Assembly (NCBI RefSeq): GCF_003788635.1
Contig: NZ_AYKH01000042.1
Span: 1-64,000 of the forward strand
Length of the DNA stretch: 64,000 nt
Direction of reading: 5' to 3'
Origin: Salinisphaera orenii subsp. orenii MK-B5
GTDB lineage: Bacteria; Pseudomonadota; Gammaproteobacteria; Nevskiales; Salinisphaeraceae
Positions 2,467 through 9,237 of the stretch are shown piece after piece. A program made the translations under genes and the position numbers. The notes under the pieces were generated by a model. The model was given only the letters and a program-made list of their open reading frames with translations. It did not search any database and was not told the DNA's origin. Positions within the stretch are counted from its first letter, which is position 1. Every line of letters starts with the position of its first letter.

Positions 2467-3783
2467 CTAGATCAGCAACAACGCCCCAATCGCCACACCC
2501 GTAACCAGCATGATCACCACACAGAAGCCCATGATGTCGCGGGCCTTGAGGCCGGCGATGGCGAGCGCGGGCAGCGCCCAGAAGGGCTGGATCATGTTCG
2601 TCCAGGCGTCGCCCCAGGCGAAGCCGGTGATGACGTTGCCGATATCGGCATTGAGCGACTGCGCGGCTTCGATGAGGATGGGCCCCTGCACGGCCCACTG
2701 GCCGCCGCCGGAGGGGATGAAGATGTTGATGAAGCCGGCCGACAGGAAGCTGATGAACGGCAGGGTGTGGGCGGTGGAGATGCTCACGAAGCCGTTGGCG
2801 AGTTCGGCCGCGAGGCCGGAGGCGCTCATCATGCCCATGATGCCGGCATAGAACGGGAACTGGATGAGCACGCCGGCCACGCCGCGCACGGCTTCGTCCA
2901 GTGTTTCCAGAAAGGCCTTGGCACTGCCGTGCAGGGCCAGACCCAGAAAGATCAGCACGAAGATGACGATGTTGAGGTTGAGCCCGCCGCCGGTGAAGGC
3001 ATAGGCGAGCACCGCGGCGAAGCCGAGTGCGGCGCTGATCCAGGCCAGCCATTTCGACTGTTCCAGGCGCTCGGCCGGGCGCGTCTGCTCGTCGTGATCG
3101 CGCTTGGCGGCGGGCGCATCCTCGAGCTGGTCGGCCTTGACGGTGACGGGGTCCTTGATGCCGCGCATCATCAGCCCGCAGACGATCGGCATGAGGACCA
3201 GTATCACCAGACAGATGATGAGATTGATCGGGCTGAAGATGGTCTCGCTCGTGGAGATGAGCCCGATCTGGTCTTCCAGGAAGTGGCCGGGCGTGGCCAC
3301 GACCAGGGGCGCGGCCGCCGACAGGCCGGCATGCCAGATGATGAAGCCGGCATAGGCGCTGGCGACCAGCAGGCGGTAATCCACGCCCTCGACGCGGCGG
3401 GCGAGTTCACGCGCGAGAATCGCGCCCACGACCAGACCGATGCCCCAGTTGAACCACGTAACCACCAGCGACACGAAGCTGACCGTGACCACCGCGCGTA
3501 CCGGCGTGCGGGCGACGGTGGCGATACGCGAGACCAGGCTCATGAACAGCGGCGTCTTGGCGACGGTGAAGCCGGTGACCAGCATCAGCGCCATCTGCAT
3601 GGCGAAGCTGAGCAGATTCCAGAAGCCGTCCTGCCAGAAGCCGAGCATCGCGACCGGGCCGTGGCCCTGGAAGACCATGCCCGCGGCGAACACCACCAGC
3701 GTGATGATGAGCACGAGGATCAGTGGATCGGGCAGGTAGCGGTCGAATACGCGAACACAGCCGCGGGTGAGTGCGCTGAACAT
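2467..3783 (-). CDS. atoE: AtoE-type short-chain fatty acid transporter
   Basis: This 438-residue, strongly hydrophobic protein has about ten membrane segments and matches the short-chain fatty acid transporter (AtoE) family. Family-like features are the FNWGIGLVVGAILARE stretch near residue 110 and PSGGGQWAVQGP in the C-terminal half. It should sit in the inner membrane and take up a small carboxylate such as acetoacetate or butyrate. The hydrophilic loop near residues 215-240 is highly charged. It is the last gene of the leftward operon with the cyclodeaminase-like gene and the molybdopterin fusion enzyme, which suggests it imports the substrate of that enzyme. The true substrate cannot be read from sequence. 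An AGGGGG motif lies about 9 bases upstream of the ATG. Confidence 0.85.
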   Translation of the reverse strand: MFSALTRGCVRVFDRYLPDPLILVLIITLVVFAAGMVFQGHGPVAMLGFWQDGFWNLLSFAMQMALMLVTGFTVAKTPLFMSLVSRIATVARTPVRAVVTVSFVSLVVTWFNWGIGLVVGAILARELARRVEGVDYRLLVASAYAGFIIWHAGLSAAAPLVVATPGHFLEDQIGLISTSETIFSPINLIICLVILVLMPIVCGLMMRGIKDPVTVKADQLEDAPAAKRDHDEQTRPAERLEQSKWLAWISAALGFAAVLAYAFTGGGLNLNIVIFVLIFLGLALHGSAKAFLETLDEAVRGVAGVLIQFPFYAGIMGMMSASGLAAELANGFVSISTAHTLPFISFLSAGFINIFIPSGGGQWAVQGPILIEAAQSLNADIGNVITGFAWGDAWTNMIQPFWALPALAIAGLKARDIMGFCVVIMLVTGVAIGALLLI

Positions 3784-3830: not shown

Positions 3831-4763
3831 TCAGTGGGCGTTGGCCTCGTAGATGAGCGTCGCGCTGGCCAGATCCTCCAGCGCGGTGCCGACGGCCTTG
3901 AATACGGTGATGTCGTTGTCGTTCTCGCGGCCGGGATGGTCGCCGCGGCACAGCGTGGCCAGATCGGCGCGGATGTCGGCCTCGGCGAGCGCGCCGCTGG
4001 CGATGGGTTCGATGAGATCGCCGCTTTCGTGCAGCGCGCCGAGCACGTCCACGAAGACCTGTCCGCGGGCGAACACGGCGTCGTCGGCCTCGCGCATGGC
4101 GGGCGAGAAGCTGCCGATGAGGTCCACGTGCACGCCGGCCTGCAGCCACTCGCCGTGAATCAGCGGCGCGGTGGACAGCGTGGCGCCGACGACGCAGTCC
4201 GCCGATTTCACGGCGGCTTCCAGGTCGGACACGACCTCGGCGTCGAAGCCGTCCTCGCGCAGCGCGCCGACCAGGCGCTCGGCGTTGGCGGCGGTCGGAT
4301 TCCAGACGCGCACGCGCTCTATGGCCCGCACGCTGCGATAGGCCGCGGCCATGAGCGAGCCGATCCGCCCGGCGCCGAGAATCAGCAGCTCGCGGGCGTC
4401 CTCGCGGGCGAGATAGGACGCGCCGAGCGCCGAGGCCGCGGCCGTCCGCCTTGCGGTGATCTGGTCGCCGTCGATGAGGGCGAGATGCTGGCCGGTATCG
4501 GCATCGCAGAGCAGATAGCTGGCGTGCAGGCCCGGCAGGCCGCGCTGGCCGTTGCCCGGAAACACGCTCACCACCTTGATGCCCATATAGCGCTCGGACC
4601 ACGCCGGCATGAGCAGCAGCGTGCTGTCGGCAGCGTTGCCCACGCCGTGGTGATGATGGCGCGGCGGCGCCTGGCAGCCGGCGACGAAAGCGTCGCGCAG
4701 GGTGGGCACGAGGCGCTCGAAGGCCAGGCACTGGCGGGCGGTGTCGGCGTCGATGGTCAGCAT
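3831..4763 (-). CDS. Ornithine cyclodeaminase/mu-crystallin family protein
   Basis: A 310-residue member of the ornithine cyclodeaminase/mu-crystallin family. The Rossmann glycine motif LILGAGRIGSLMA lies mid-protein, preceded by the family helix DGDQITARRTAAASALGA. Relatives use NAD(P) to cyclise ornithine, or reduce delta1-pyrroline-2-carboxylate or related cyclic imines; the sequence does not decide between these. I start at the ATG at 4763, which has a GGAAG a few bases upstream. An in-frame ATG at 4787 would add eight residues and has no clear ribosome site. It follows the molybdopterin fusion gene by 67 bases and precedes atoE, so all three probably form one transcript controlled by the divergent LysR gene. 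A histidine-rich patch (RHHHHG) sits near the N-terminus. Confidence 0.85.
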   Translation of the reverse strand: MLTIDADTARQCLAFERLVPTLRDAFVAGCQAPPRHHHHGVGNAADSTLLLMPAWSERYMGIKVVSVFPGNGQRGLPGLHASYLLCDADTGQHLALIDGDQITARRTAAASALGASYLAREDARELLILGAGRIGSLMAAAYRSVRAIERVRVWNPTAANAERLVGALREDGFDAEVVSDLEAAVKSADCVVGATLSTAPLIHGEWLQAGVHVDLIGSFSPAMREADDAVFARGQVFVDVLGALHESGDLIEPIASGALAEADIRADLATLCRGDHPGRENDNDITVFKAVGTALEDLASATLIYEANAH

Positions 4764-4830
4764 GGGAACTTCCGGGGTCGTGAACATGGGGCGAGCGCAT
4801 GGCGGCGGCGACAGACGGCGCGCCGCGCGT

Positions 4831-7800
4831 TCATGCGTCGAGCTCGATATCGGTGAGCGGCACGGCCTGGCAGGTCAGGCAGACATCGTCGGCGAGTGCG
4901 GCGGTATCGACCGCGGTCTGCACCCGCCCGGAGACCAGCCGCAGGGCACAGCTTTCACACTGGCCGGCGCGGCAGCCGCTGGGCAGCTCGACGCCGTGGC
5001 GGTCGGCGCAGTCGAGAATGGAGGCATGCGTCGGCGTCCAGTCGATCGTGATGCCCGAGCGGGCGAGATGCACCCGCTGCGGCGCCAGCCCGGCGCGATC
5101 GACCGGCGCCGGGGCGGTGAACGCTTCGGAAAATATCTCGAAATCGAACACGCCGCGCGCGGCCAGCAGGGTGCGCGCCTGCGCCATGAGCGCATCCGGC
5201 CCGCAGAGATAGAAGCGCGCACGGCGCGCGATCCAGTCGTCGGCGATCACGCGGTCGTCGAGGCGTCCGGCGCGGTGGTAGTCGCGGCCAGGTTCGTCGG
5301 TGGCGCGCGGCGCGCTGTAGAGATCGCTCACGTTCAGCCGGGGCAGGCGCGCCTGCAACGCACGCAGGCGCGCGGCGAAGGCGTGGCTGGCGCCGTGGCG
5401 GTTGGCGTAGACGAGATGAATCTCGGGCATGGCGTCGTCGTCGCTCGCGGCCAGCGTTTCCAGCAGCGACAGGAACGGCGTGATGCCGATGCCGCCGGCG
5501 ATCAGCACGATCGGCGCGTCGTGACGCGTGGGCAGCGTGAAACGCCCGGCGGGCATGCGCGCTTCGACCACGTCACCCTCGCGCAGGGCCTCGTTGATAT
5601 GCGTGGACACGACGCCGGGCGCGCCCTCGCCTGCGCGCGCGAGCCGCTTGACGCTGATGCGGTAGGTGCGCGGCGTGTCGAGCGCGGCGCCCGACAGCGA
5701 ATAGAAGCGCTCGGCGGCCTCGCCGTTCGCGAGCGCGAAGCGCAGCGGCAGATGCTGGCCCGGGCGAAAGCCTGCCAGCGGGGCGCCGTCCACGGGCTGC
5801 AGGATCACCGAGGCCACGGCCTCGCTCTCGCGCTGTATCGCCATGACCCGAAAGGCGCGATAGCCGGCCCAGCCGGTCGCGCCGGCGAGCGCGCGCACCT
5901 CGCAGCGCGCGCTGCGCAGCGCGATCGCCCCGCTGACCGGGTCGCGGGCAGTGTCGTCGATCACGGCGTTGATATTGCGGGTCGCGGCGCCGCTGATCGG
6001 CGCGCCGGGCAGGCCGAGATCGTCGCAGGCCTGCCACCAGCCGTAGTCGGCGATGGCCACGTCGTCCTCGAGCGCGTCGTCGATCGTCAGACGCAGATGC
6101 GCGCTGCCGGTCGCACCTTCGACGGCCACCCACTGCCCGGCCCCGAGGCCGCGCTGCGCGGCGGCGCCCGGCGACAGCGCCACGCGCGGGTCGGGCGAGC
6201 GCCGGCGCAGCGAGCTGATCTGGCGATGCTGGGAATGACAGTAGTAGCCGTCCTTGACCGTGACCAGCCGCAGCGGCCGCCCGGGCTGCGCCGCGGCCGG
6301 CGCGCGCGCCTGCGGTACCGCCGGATAGCCGTGGACGTGCAGCATTTCGCTGTAGAACTCCACCCGGCGCGAGGGCGTGGCGAAACCGGCGGCTTCGCCG
6401 TCGGCGTTCACGCGCGCGTACTTGCGCTCGCCGCTGTCGAGCTCGACGCGGCGCCCGCCGGGCTCGGCCCGCAGCGTATCGACGTCGAGGCCCAGCGGTT
6501 CGAGCATGTAGTCCCAGCCGGCCTCGATATCGCCGCCGAAGAAGTCGCCGGCCATGCCCAGCCGACAGGCGAGCGCCATGGCGACGTCGTAGTCGGCCCG
6601 GGATTCGCCGCGCGGCGCGACCATGCGCGGGCGCAGCTGCACGTGGGCCGCGGCATCGGCGTCGACCTCGAAGCCCAGGCGCAGGCCTTCGCGCTCCCAG
6701 GGTGTGTTGATGGGCAGCAGGATATCGGCGTAGGCGTTGGTGGGCGTATGAAACAGGTCGCAGTGGACATGAAACTCCAGCGCCTCGAGCGCACGCTGGC
6801 CGCGCTCGGTGCCCGGCTGGGAGACGAGAAAATTGGCGCCGAAGCCGAACAGCGCCTTGACGGCATAGGGTTTGTCGTCGAGCACGGCGTCGTAGACATC
6901 CGCCGCGGTGACCCAGCCCGTCGCCGGCGGGCCGAGCGGGCGCGTGTCGATACCCAGGGCTTTCGCGCGCTGGGTGGCTTCGAGCAGCGACGGATCGTTG
7001 ACGCCGTTGGCGGGCAACGGCCCGTAGATACGATTGCCGCCGATCCGGTCGAAGCTGCCGGTGAGCGCATAGAGCGTGGCGATGGCGCGCTCGGTCTGGG
7101 TGGCGTTGGCGTGCTGGCCGATGCCGGTCCAGCCGTGATAGCTCACCGCCGGCCCGGCGGCGGCGATCATGTCCGCGGCGCGGCGGATATCGTCGGGCGC
7201 CAGGCCGGTCACCTCGGCGGTGCGCGCGAGCGTCCACGGCGCGCAGGCGCGCCGGTAGTGGTCGAACGCCGGCCGACAGGTGACGGTATCGCCGTTGGCG
7301 AGCGTGACCTCGTAGCGCCCGTGCAGGCACAGGTCGTCGGCGTGCGCGGCCGGCATCGGCGTGCGCGTATCGACCGTGAAGGCGCCGTGCCCGGTGCGCG
7401 ACCAGGCGACATAGCCCTGCGCATGCTCGTCGAACCGCTCGGCGCGCAGCAGCGCACCGCTGGCCTCGTCCACCAGAAAACCGGCGTTGCTCCAGCGGCG
7501 CACGAAGTCGTGATCGATACGCCGTTGTTCGATCAACAGCCGGGCCAGGCCCAGCGCCAGCGCGTCGTCGGTACCGGGGCGAATACGCAGCCACAGGTCG
7601 GCCGCACGGGCGTGGGCGGTGGCGCGCGGGTCGACGACCAGCAGCGTGCGGCCCTTGGCCACGCGCGCCGCCTGGGCCAGCCAGACGCTGGACGGGTTAT
7701 GGCCCCAGAGAATGTTCAGACGCGCGCGGGCATAGTCGGCCACCGGCATACCGCAGCCGAAGGTGAACTGGTGGGCGACATCCTTGTGCCAGTTGCACAG

Positions 7801-8235
7801 CTCGGTGGCATAGATGGTGTTGGGGCTGCCGTAGCGCCGGATGAAGCGCTCGACCCAGTCGATGCTGTCCGACATCGGCGTGCCGCTGGGCGTGGTCACC
7901 GAGAACGCCACGCTCTCCGCGCCGAGGCGCGCGCGATAGTCGGCGAGGCGATCGGCAATCTCGGCGAGGGCCACGTCCCAATCGATCCGCTGCCAACCGG
8001 GGTCGGCATCGCCCTTGGGGCGCGTGCGCTTGAGCGGGTAGAGAATGCGATCGCGCGCATGCACGAGTTCGGGCGCGGCGCGGCCCTTGGCACAGGTGGC
8101 CTGGCCGGTGGGATGCGCGGGGTCGGCCTCGACGGCGACGAGGCCGTCGCCGTCGACGGTATTAAGCGTGCCGCAACGCGAGCGACACAGCGTGCAATAG
8201 CCGGGAATGCGGCGTGTCACCGCGATGTTGCGCAC
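4831..8235 (-). CDS. Molybdopterin oxidoreductase-flavin reductase-ferredoxin fusion
   Basis: A 1134-residue three-part enzyme. Residues 1-60 carry a 4Fe-4S site (C14, C17, C21, C48). Residues 60 to about 760 form a molybdopterin guanine dinucleotide oxidoreductase of the DMSO-reductase superfamily, with the dinucleotide-binding domain running to about 790. A flavin reductase follows, with flavin motif RFYSLSG, nucleotide motif LIAGGIGITPF and YLCGP. The last ~85 residues are a plant-type 2Fe-2S ferredoxin (cysteines near 1088, 1093, 1096 and 1122). The C-terminal half resembles VanB/phthalate dioxygenase reductases, so electrons could pass from NAD(P)H via flavin and 2Fe-2S to molybdenum, or in reverse, within one chain. 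No twin-arginine signal is seen, so it is probably cytoplasmic. The substrate is unknown. It is the first gene of a probable operon with the cyclodeaminase and AtoE genes, divergent from LysR. Confidence 0.88.
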   Translation of the reverse strand: MRNIAVTRRIPGYCTLCRSRCGTLNTVDGDGLVAVEADPAHPTGQATCAKGRAAPELVHARDRILYPLKRTRPKGDADPGWQRIDWDVALAEIADRLADYRARLGAESVAFSVTTPSGTPMSDSIDWVERFIRRYGSPNTIYATELCNWHKDVAHQFTFGCGMPVADYARARLNILWGHNPSSVWLAQAARVAKGRTLLVVDPRATAHARAADLWLRIRPGTDDALALGLARLLIEQRRIDHDFVRRWSNAGFLVDEASGALLRAERFDEHAQGYVAWSRTGHGAFTVDTRTPMPAAHADDLCLHGRYEVTLANGDTVTCRPAFDHYRRACAPWTLARTAEVTGLAPDDIRRAADMIAAAGPAVSYHGWTGIGQHANATQTERAIATLYALTGSFDRIGGNRIYGPLPANGVNDPSLLEATQRAKALGIDTRPLGPPATGWVTAADVYDAVLDDKPYAVKALFGFGANFLVSQPGTERGQRALEALEFHVHCDLFHTPTNAYADILLPINTPWEREGLRLGFEVDADAAAHVQLRPRMVAPRGESRADYDVAMALACRLGMAGDFFGGDIEAGWDYMLEPLGLDVDTLRAEPGGRRVELDSGERKYARVNADGEAAGFATPSRRVEFYSEMLHVHGYPAVPQARAPAAAQPGRPLRLVTVKDGYYCHSQHRQISSLRRRSPDPRVALSPGAAAQRGLGAGQWVAVEGATGSAHLRLTIDDALEDDVAIADYGWWQACDDLGLPGAPISGAATRNINAVIDDTARDPVSGAIALRSARCEVRALAGATGWAGYRAFRVMAIQRESEAVASVILQPVDGAPLAGFRPGQHLPLRFALANGEAAERFYSLSGAALDTPRTYRISVKRLARAGEGAPGVVSTHINEALREGDVVEARMPAGRFTLPTRHDAPIVLIAGGIGITPFLSLLETLAASDDDAMPEIHLVYANRHGASHAFAARLRALQARLPRLNVSDLYSAPRATDEPGRDYHRAGRLDDRVIADDWIARRARFYLCGPDALMAQARTLLAARGVFDFEIFSEAFTAPAPVDRAGLAPQRVHLARSGITIDWTPTHASILDCADRHGVELPSGCRAGQCESCALRLVSGRVQTAVDTAALADDVCLTCQAVPLTDIELDA

Positions 8236-8266
8236 ATTCTGTCCATCACTCGACCCTACCGGGGGC

Positions 8267-8299
8267 GGCTCGAAACAATCTAATATGTATTTTCGAGCC
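8267..8299. promoter_or_regulatory. 9-bp inverted repeat in LysR/Mo-operon divergent promoter
   Basis: GGCTCGAAA (8267-8275) and TTTCGAGCC (8291-8299) form a perfect inverted repeat around a 15-base AT-rich spacer, centred between the divergent molybdopterin operon and the LysR gene. It is a candidate regulator binding site. Confidence 0.6.
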
Positions 8300-8304
8300 C
8301 AGCG

Positions 8305-8321
8305 TATAGATAAAAACTATA
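8305..8321. promoter_or_regulatory. Second dyad abutting the LysR start codon
   Basis: TATAG (8305-8309) and CTATA (8317-8321) flank seven bases, a T-N11-A type layout expected for LysR regulators. The dyad ends one base before the LysR ATG, and no Shine-Dalgarno is visible there. Binding would block that gene directly, which fits autoregulation. Confidence 0.5.
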
Positions 8322-8322
8322 G

Positions 8323-9237
8323 ATGAAGCTTCAGCAACTGCGCCATTTCCTGGCGGTCGCGGAGACAGGCACGCTTTCGGAAGCCGCCCAGCGCTGCCAT
8401 ATCTCGCAGCCGTCGATGTCGGCCTCGCTGCAGAAGCTCGAGCAGGACGTCGACAAGCCGCTGTTCCTGCGCCACGCCCGCGGGCTCACGCCCACCGAGT
8501 ACGGGCGGCGCCTGCAGCAGTACGCCCTGCGCATCCTGCGCACGGTCGAGGAGGCCCGCCTGAGTCTGGACGACGAGCCCGTGGAGCTGACGGGCTGCCT
8601 AACCGTGGGCGTCACCGAGACGATCTCGGCCTACCTGCTGCCCCGTATCCTGCGGTGGCAGCAGAGCATGCTGGCCGGGCTCGCGATCCGCTTCGTGGAG
8701 GACGATATCGCCGGGCTCCAACAGCAGGTCAAAGACCGTCGACTCGACATGGGCCTGATGGTCACCGACAACGTCACGCCGGACGACGCGCTGCGCTGCG
8801 ACGTGTTGTTCACCTCCCCGCGCCATCTCTGGCTGAGCTCCGGCCATCCACTGCAGCAGGCCGAACGGATCACGCTGGCCGACGTGGCCGATTACCCGTT
8901 CGTGCGGCTCGAGATGGACGAGCACGCCAGCACCTGGACGCGCTACTGGCGCACCAGCCCCGTGCGACCCGAGATCGCGTTCCGCAGCCATTCGATCGAG
9001 GCCGTGCGCAGCATGGTCGGCCGCAACATCGGCATCACGATCCTGTCGGATCTGGTATTCCGCCCGTGGACGCTCGACGGCGAGCATCTATCGCGCCGCG
9101 CGCTGGTCGACAGCATCCCCGGCATGGACATCGGCGTGATTCGCAGCGGCGGCGCCGACAGCGCGCCGCTGCAGGCCTTCGTCAACATGCTGAACCACAA
9201 CCTGCAGCGCGATGCTTTGCTCGAGCAACAGCGCTGA
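8323..9237 (+). CDS. LysR-family transcriptional regulator
   Basis: A 304-residue LysR-type regulator. The N-terminal winged helix-turn-helix is clear (LRHFLAVAETGTLSEAAQRC, then ISQPSMSASLQKLE). The C-terminal ligand-binding part has the usual periplasmic-binding-like fold pattern. It is divergent from the molybdopterin fusion operon, with 87 bases and two dyad sequences between the starts, so it most likely controls that operon in response to its substrate. The effector is unknown. The ATG lacks an evident ribosome binding site, and the start was chosen because the conserved LysR N-terminus begins there. Confidence 0.9.
   Translation: MKLQQLRHFLAVAETGTLSEAAQRCHISQPSMSASLQKLEQDVDKPLFLRHARGLTPTEYGRRLQQYALRILRTVEEARLSLDDEPVELTGCLTVGVTETISAYLLPRILRWQQSMLAGLAIRFVEDDIAGLQQQVKDRRLDMGLMVTDNVTPDDALRCDVLFTSPRHLWLSSGHPLQQAERITLADVADYPFVRLEMDEHASTWTRYWRTSPVRPEIAFRSHSIEAVRSMVGRNIGITILSDLVFRPWTLDGEHLSRRALVDSIPGMDIGVIRSGGADSAPLQAFVNMLNHNLQRDALLEQQR

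Follow-up and report, generated by a model that had tools for sequence, protein, structure and literature searches.

The fused gene and its operon

The DNA studied here is a stretch of 64,000 nucleotides from Salinisphaera orenii subsp. orenii MK-B5 (contig NZ_AYKH01000042.1), referred to below as the window. On its minus strand, a single uninterrupted open reading frame (ORF) of 1134 codons (4831-8235) joins a molybdopterin oxidoreductase to a flavin-NAD(P)H reductase and a plant-type ferredoxin. The fusion gene is followed, after a 43-base gap, by a gene of the ornithine cyclodeaminase (OCD) superfamily and, after a 47-base gap, by a carboxylate transporter gene (Table 1). The original prediction, made from the letters of the window, had proposed this three-module chain and its partners without giving a strand. 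Pfam, curated models, and fold comparison all bear out the chain, and the ORFs and Pfam matches show the OCD_Mu_crystall, SCFA_trans, and divergent LysR partners to be present.

Table 1. Features of the fusion gene and its operon in the window
Feature	Position	Strand	Basis and remarks
Fused molybdopterin oxidoreductase / flavin-NAD(P)H reductase / [2Fe-2S] ferredoxin	4831..8235	-	1134 aa, GTG start; ORF and Pfam
Molybdoenzyme core: [4Fe-4S], Molybdopterin, and dinucleotide-binding domains, residues 10-774	5914..8208	-	Pfam
Active-site signature E145-L-C147-N-W-H-K151	7783..7803	-	Alignments
Flavin / NAD(P)H reductase module, residues 790-1041 (R843-F-Y-S, GGIGITPF)	5113..5868	-	Profiles and fold
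Plant-type [2Fe-2S] ferredoxin module, residues 1056-1126 (C1088, C1093, C1096, C1122)	4858..5070	-	Fer2
OCD-superfamily delta1-pyrroline-2-carboxylate (P2C) / delta1-piperideine-2-carboxylate (Pip2C) reductase	3831..4787	-	318 aa; NF004793, PF02423
SCFA_trans-family (TIGR00366-like) carboxylate transporter	2467..3783	-	438 aa; PF02667, 488 bits
LysR-type regulator, divergent	8323..9237	+	304 aa; PF00126, PF03466
Intergenic region between the divergent genes, presumed site of LysR control	8236..8322	.	87 bp; inferred from position alone

The Pfam scan placed Molybdop_Fe4S4 at residues 10-59, Molybdopterin at 63-556, and Molydop_binding at 655-774, which is the domain set of the dimethyl sulfoxide (DMSO) reductase superfamily, and NAD_binding_1 at 911-1021 and Fer2 at 1056-1126, all above the gathering score. 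It reported no FAD-binding domain of its own in the protein. The top-scoring curated models for the reductase module were those of flavohemoprotein (NF009805; residues 786-1040, E 2.4e-60, 204.6 bits, short of the curated cut-off of 432) and PaaE (TIGR02160; residues 794-1129, also below cut-off). The earlier label was "VanB-like"; "PDR/VanB" is the annotation of the separate reductase gene of one unfused relative (L092).

The transporter scored 484.6 bits against TIGR00366 (AtoE), below the cut-off of 575.75, and falls within the wider PF02667 family. The OCD reading frame may start at Met9 (4763), where most relatives start. Pfam and curated-model scans found no 3-hydroxyproline dehydratase among the four operon genes. 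On the opposite strand, an antisense frame (4702-8283, +), open over 1193 aa, spans the entire fusion gene; part of it finds only itself in the host genome, and the frame most likely arises as a consequence of GC-rich codons.

The fusion in other genomes

We compared 97 loci carrying the fusion or its core (window included). A search with six peptide patterns from the window protein gave 94 relatives, of which the best 80 were used; these come from Gammaproteobacteria, Burkholderiales, rhizobia, Rhodobacterales, Photorhabdus, and Streptomyces. The 97 include close relatives (e.g., nine from Pandoraea) and one Mesorhizobium record counted twice (L073 and L088). Since the entire module set lies in one ORF at 86 of the 97 loci, the three-module fusion is real, and chance or an assembly artifact, the objection raised in the original prediction, is excluded. 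Of the 11 loci without a complete fusion ORF, three are truncated at contig ends (L047, L069, and L070), the twice-counted Mesorhizobium record has an early stop in the fusion ORF, and six have no reductase in the molybdoenzyme ORF (L075, L079, L080, L081, L092, and L097). The annotation of the Mesorhizobium plasmid gives the ferredoxin cluster part a small coding sequence of its own, which overlaps the shortened fusion ORF by 4 bases.

Plasmids contributed 26 records with at least 80% query coverage. The earlier statement that such modules usually form separate subunits is correct for the family as a whole; the fusion itself, however, is old and widespread, as these records and the 86 fused loci show. 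The host genome (44 contigs, 3.67 Mb) has one full-length copy, and eight further matches are partial, with 27-36% identity. In the host family, 4 of 17 genomes carry the fusion, all four in the arrangement LysR-fusion-OCD-transporter. Matches were found in 6 of 398 genomes of the phylum (one in the core only and one in the reductase only), in 6 of 369 genomes of the class (four in the core or part of it only), and in 16 of 385 genomes of another class, where unfused relatives are common. In 14 of the last 16 the match was in the core only; "unfused" there means that the match ends before the reductase, with G585 truncated at a contig end and G469 close to one. These genome searches describe a patchy family: the fusion makes up one branch, and the same signature also occurs in unfused cores.

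Two plasmid records from Variovorax have an unfused core with a reductase gene of its own behind it. The unfused core of L153 (G790; 6574-9203) is divided over two ORFs about 200 bases apart. An apparent in-frame stop in L107 proved to be merely the end of an unfused gene.

Structure and conserved residues

The AlphaFold model of the fusion (46 family rows) had a mean pLDDT of 89.7 and a pTM of 0.87, with the ferredoxin cluster loops 1089-1094 and 1112-1115 below a pLDDT of 50. For the core, the best fold match by VIA-align was acetylene hydratase 2e7z (Z 39.8, root mean square deviation [rmsd] 2.4, 673 aligned), which also ranked first in Foldseek and was the top PDB match by sequence (7e-56). 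Polysulfide reductase 2vpw (Z 37.4) and formate dehydrogenases (Z about 35) came next. Model residues 790-1041 matched the flavohemoprotein FAD/NAD domain 4eh1 (Z 30.6, rmsd 1.9, 236 aligned).

In the 46-row alignment, E145, C147, N148, W149, H150, K151, and C48 are invariant, C14, C17, and C21 are conserved at 90% or more, and R18 is almost invariant. C147 aligns, by way of a Pandoraea homologue, with the Cys that binds the metal in 2e7z and 2vpw. The core thus has the four cluster Cys residues (C14, C17, C21, and C48) and the Cys-type candidate metal ligand expected of the superfamily. Also invariant are C1088, C1093, C1096, and C1122 of the ferredoxin and R843, Y845, G915, G917, T919, and P920 of the reductase; the FNR-type and plant-type ferredoxin motifs are all present (RxYS for flavin, GG...TP for nucleotide, and CxxxxCxxC...C for the cluster).

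The signature E-x-C-[NT]-W-H-K-D is present at 91 of the 97 loci; motif conservation among the 80 loci above is biased because ELCNWHKD was one of the six search patterns. Among 28 loci recovered by whole-protein search, with no motif as search pattern, E-x-C-N-W-H-K-D is present in 23; in this set, L101, L102, and L104 appear to repeat the contigs of L002, L003, and L049, and a single gene is divided between L148 and L150.

Genes that recur beside the fusion

Beside the fusion or core, a transporter gene was found at 47 of the 97 loci, a LysR gene at 47, and an OCD gene at 38 (at an 80-bit threshold; 36 at 150 bits). All three partners occur at 29 loci, OCD or transporter at 54, and none of the three at 41. 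In a position control covering 880 kb of flank, the transporter was near the fusion at 47 loci and nowhere else; the corresponding counts were 36 near and 1 elsewhere for OCD and 47 near and 2 elsewhere for LysR. The gene order differs among loci (OCD-transporter, transporter-OCD, and transporter-fusion-OCD), which suggests that selection holds the partner set together. In the fusion tree, the partners occur in many separate branches but not in all; the branch that is sister to the window's lacks them, as do others.

The description of the set as "self-contained" was too strong, since the fusion must also serve at the 41 loci where no partner stands beside it. Solitary copies in Photorhabdus, on enterobacterial plasmids, and in Streptomyces have unrelated neighbors. 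On Klebsiella and Enterobacter conjugative plasmids (L085 and L095), the full-length fusion adjoins metal-transport and metal-regulator genes. The plasmid records H3 and H26 carry no annotation. Among 126 further neighbors, taken from the head of a list of 246 eligible ones (loci L003-L061, some long ones omitted), the commonest families were ABC, LysR, TctC, and SDR. In L161 (6989-8296), a transporter relative with no fusion adjoining it has as its neighbor a gene annotated putP, a sodium/proline symporter.

The OCD gene and its probable link to P2C

The window OCD scored 430.3 bits against NF004793, the P2C/Pip2C reductase model (cut-off 322), and the OCDs of L157, L086, L007, L091, and L094 also passed at 390-428 bits. 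By this measure the window OCD is a member of the P2C reductase family. The earlier term "ornithine-cyclodeaminase-like" thus named the right family, but the assignment can be more specific, and because of it the pathway is tied to proline or pipecolate. The best PDB matches of the OCD were 7rbp, named only as ornithine cyclodeaminase/mu-crystallin, and 6t3e, named delta1-pyrroline-2-carboxylate reductase.

The same OCD subfamily is found on plasmids that lack the fusion. Two of the eight fusion-free OCD neighborhoods inspected hold a 3-hydroxy-L-proline dehydratase that passes its curated model. In L157, a cis-3-hydroxy-L-proline dehydratase lies near the OCD on the opposite strand (506.4 bits, cut-off 500); in the other, the genes overlap by 4 bases. 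An aconitase X gene in a fusion-free neighborhood missed its own model (367.7 bits, cut-off 700). Both 3-hydroxy-L-proline dehydratase pathways yield P2C. OCD-superfamily members are reported to reduce the ketimine of proline (P2C to L-proline) in 3-hydroxyproline pathways (PMC4113996), and aconitase X is reported to act as a dehydratase (PMC5144071).

In a quick OCD tree, fusion-linked and fusion-free OCDs are intermixed, with at least five changes, and L157 pairs with the fusion-linked L091 (SH-aLRT 87). The intermixing makes it appear that one OCD function is shared between pathways.

Genes for proline breakdown were also found. On the Rhodococcus plasmid pR1CP1, fusion, OCD, and transporter are followed 2.6 kb further, on the other strand, by a gene of the proline dehydrogenase family (Pro_dh) and an L-glutamate gamma-semialdehyde (P5C) dehydrogenase gene (827 bits, cut-off 613.6). 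The host genome has one Pro_dh gene, in a 1084-aa frame. Both cases fit a proline end product, weakly because such genes are common (Pro_dh matches in 8 of 14 control genomes). An Ldh_2 gene beside the unfused copy of L110 was considered as a second P2C reductase and rejected, as it scores as a malate/lactate/ureidoglycolate dehydrogenase.

A proposed pathway

We tentatively read the locus as a catabolic operon whose fused enzyme, a self-sufficient molybdenum reductase of the cytoplasm, forms a cyclic ketimine, P2C or similar, that the OCD enzyme finishes to L-proline; we consider this possible. The transporter would import a small carboxylate lacking a free amino group. Electrons would pass from NAD(P)H through flavin, the [2Fe-2S] cluster, and the [4Fe-4S] cluster to a Cys-ligated Mo (or W) bis-pterin centre, which would reduce the acid by two electrons to P2C or its six-ring homologue. 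The OCD enzyme and NAD(P)H would then convert P2C to L-proline (or L-pipecolate), the host proline dehydrogenase would complete its use as carbon and nitrogen, and LysR may sense the substrate.

The 3-hydroxy-L-proline pathways (trans and cis) use the same OCD subfamily as their second step, but here the dehydratase would be replaced by a redox enzyme and an SCFA_trans carrier. Because the OCD function appears shared and the fusion seems to fill the place held elsewhere by the dehydratases, the fusion would most simply be a P2C- (or Pip2C-) forming enzyme. An FNR-type flavin domain with a plant-type ferredoxin normally accepts electrons from NAD(P)H, which argues for the reductive direction. 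The earlier idea that a nitrogen-containing acid is handled by a small pathway linked to NAD(P)H stands as a prediction from sequence, and we tentatively sharpen it to a P2C- or proline-directed pathway.

As to the substrate, our guess for the top single candidate is pyrrole-2-carboxylate (C5H5NO2), which with 2[H] gives P2C (C5H7NO2), and our guess for the second is an N-oxygenated acid (nitrone, N-hydroxy, or oxime). Pyrrole-2-carboxylate or a nitrone or oxime acid would suit the SCFA_trans carrier, being a simple anion with no ammonium group. Oxygen removal from N-O bonds has precedent in the DMSO reductase superfamily. That the fusion is specifically an NAD(P)H-dependent pyrrole-2-carboxylate reductase, whose Mo/W bis-pterin centre de-aromatizes pyrrole in aerobes before the OCD converts P2C to L-proline, we regard as quite unlikely. 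N-Hydroxypipecolate and sulfur compounds were also considered, as were hydantoin or 5-oxoproline compounds, for which the oxoprolinase- or hydantoinase-type genes near three copies (L043, L112, and L134) are too few and too varied.

Several observations weigh against the P2C reading. At 59 of the 97 loci the fusion or core has no OCD gene next to it, 41 loci have none of the three partners, and the neighbors of the solitary copies and of the unfused copies are unrelated. No hydroxyproline-pathway family stood among the 25 listed of 130 Pfam families in the tally of 126 neighbors. Since six of the eight fusion-free OCD neighborhoods lack a 3-hydroxyproline dehydratase, the OCD context alone does not fix P2C. 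Pyrrole-ring reduction is not known to us from any bis-pterin Mo enzyme, and by a rough estimate it is slightly uphill from NADH.

Alternative explanations

A general detoxifying reductase of N-oxygenated compounds (oxime, hydroxylamine, N-oxide, or nitro), with the fused chain alone as the useful unit, is in our judgment unlikely. On this explanation, OCD and transporter were added in some lineages to catabolize one N-oxygenated acid, and the OCD reduces the imine product. Enzymes of the superfamily most often catalyze the removal of an oxygen atom, and the 41 partner-free loci, the solitary fused copies in Photorhabdus and on enterobacterial plasmids with metal-resistance genes, and a Sphingobium copy that adjoins nitric-oxide reductase and truncated hemoglobin all fit such a role. 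Where copies are solitary, the enzyme must be useful without OCD, as general detoxification would allow; against this role, the neighbors of solitary copies have nothing in common, and detoxification alone leaves the recurring P2C reductase unexplained. Less probable still, and in our view very unlikely, is the dehydrogenase direction, in which an imported cyclic imino acid, D-proline or D-pipecolate for instance, is oxidized by the fusion to P2C/Pip2C with NAD(P)+ as electron acceptor, and the OCD then makes the L-form, a net inversion. It is compatible with the OCD product, and formate dehydrogenases are among the nearest solved relatives, but the flavin and ferredoxin modules normally draw on NAD(P)H, a zwitterionic amino acid is an odd SCFA_trans cargo, and the step needs no molybdenum centre.

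That the fusion is simply a formate dehydrogenase, an assimilatory nitrate reductase, or an acetylene hydratase with a reductase attached is highly improbable, even though the superfamily is the same, 2e7z leads the PDB matches in both sequence and fold, and one relative is annotated nasC. If the substrate were formate, nitrate, or acetylene, neither the OCD partner nor the carboxylate transporter would make sense. Acetylene hydratase of Pelobacter acetylenicus (2e7z) is the closest solved core and shares the [4Fe-4S] Cys motif and the aligned ligand Cys. It has, however, a catalytic Asp after the second cluster Cys (CxxCD), where the fusion has Arg (R18), and the fusion brings its own NAD(P)H reductase and ferredoxin in a different operon; this identity was rejected. 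The catalytic subunit of polysulfide/thiosulfate reductase (2vpw) and formate dehydrogenase alpha share the fold and the position of the Cys ligand, but the window operon has no membrane or NuoF-type partners, the fusion carries the C-N-W-H-K signature, and its scores are far under the curated cut-offs. Formate dehydrogenase alpha (TIGR01591) scored 200.5 bits against a cut-off of 666.25, and formate dehydrogenases have His after the ligand Cys/Sec, where the fusion family has Asn148 (46 of 46 rows). The nitrate reductase NasC model (NF047855) scored 117.7 against 1100, and both identities were rejected. Curated models of other named enzymes were likewise missed by a wide margin. Flavohemoprotein and PaaE reductases resemble the fusion in the FAD/NAD half (residues 786-1040), and PaaE also has the C-terminal ferredoxin, but here the module is fused behind a molybdoenzyme rather than to a globin or standing as a separate protein.

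The P2C reading would give a testable role to a scattered, plasmid-borne family whose inspected records are named "molybdopterin-dependent oxidoreductase" or, in one case, nasC. As partner proteins would be unnecessary, a single soluble chain that links NAD(P)H to a molybdenum centre would suit biochemistry. With P2C as its product, the enzyme would open a redox route into proline catabolism alongside the known 3-hydroxyproline ones. Should a pyrrole acid be the substrate, the superfamily would gain a new reaction, and a heteroaromatic acid an oxygen-independent use. No characterized member of the fusion family was found in the PDB or in the searched literature, which was mostly non-subscription and judged largely by title and abstract. 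Rv0197 is uncharacterized according to PMC2936551; its kinship with the fusion family is a guess only.

Other features of the window

On the 3' side of the operon, two minus-strand ORFs (71-997 and 1288-1977) each match one end of an AAA_15 ATPase (profile positions 310-374 and 1-222). One of them also has an OLD-like TOPRIM domain, and an OLD-type nuclease gene is seemingly split or broken there.

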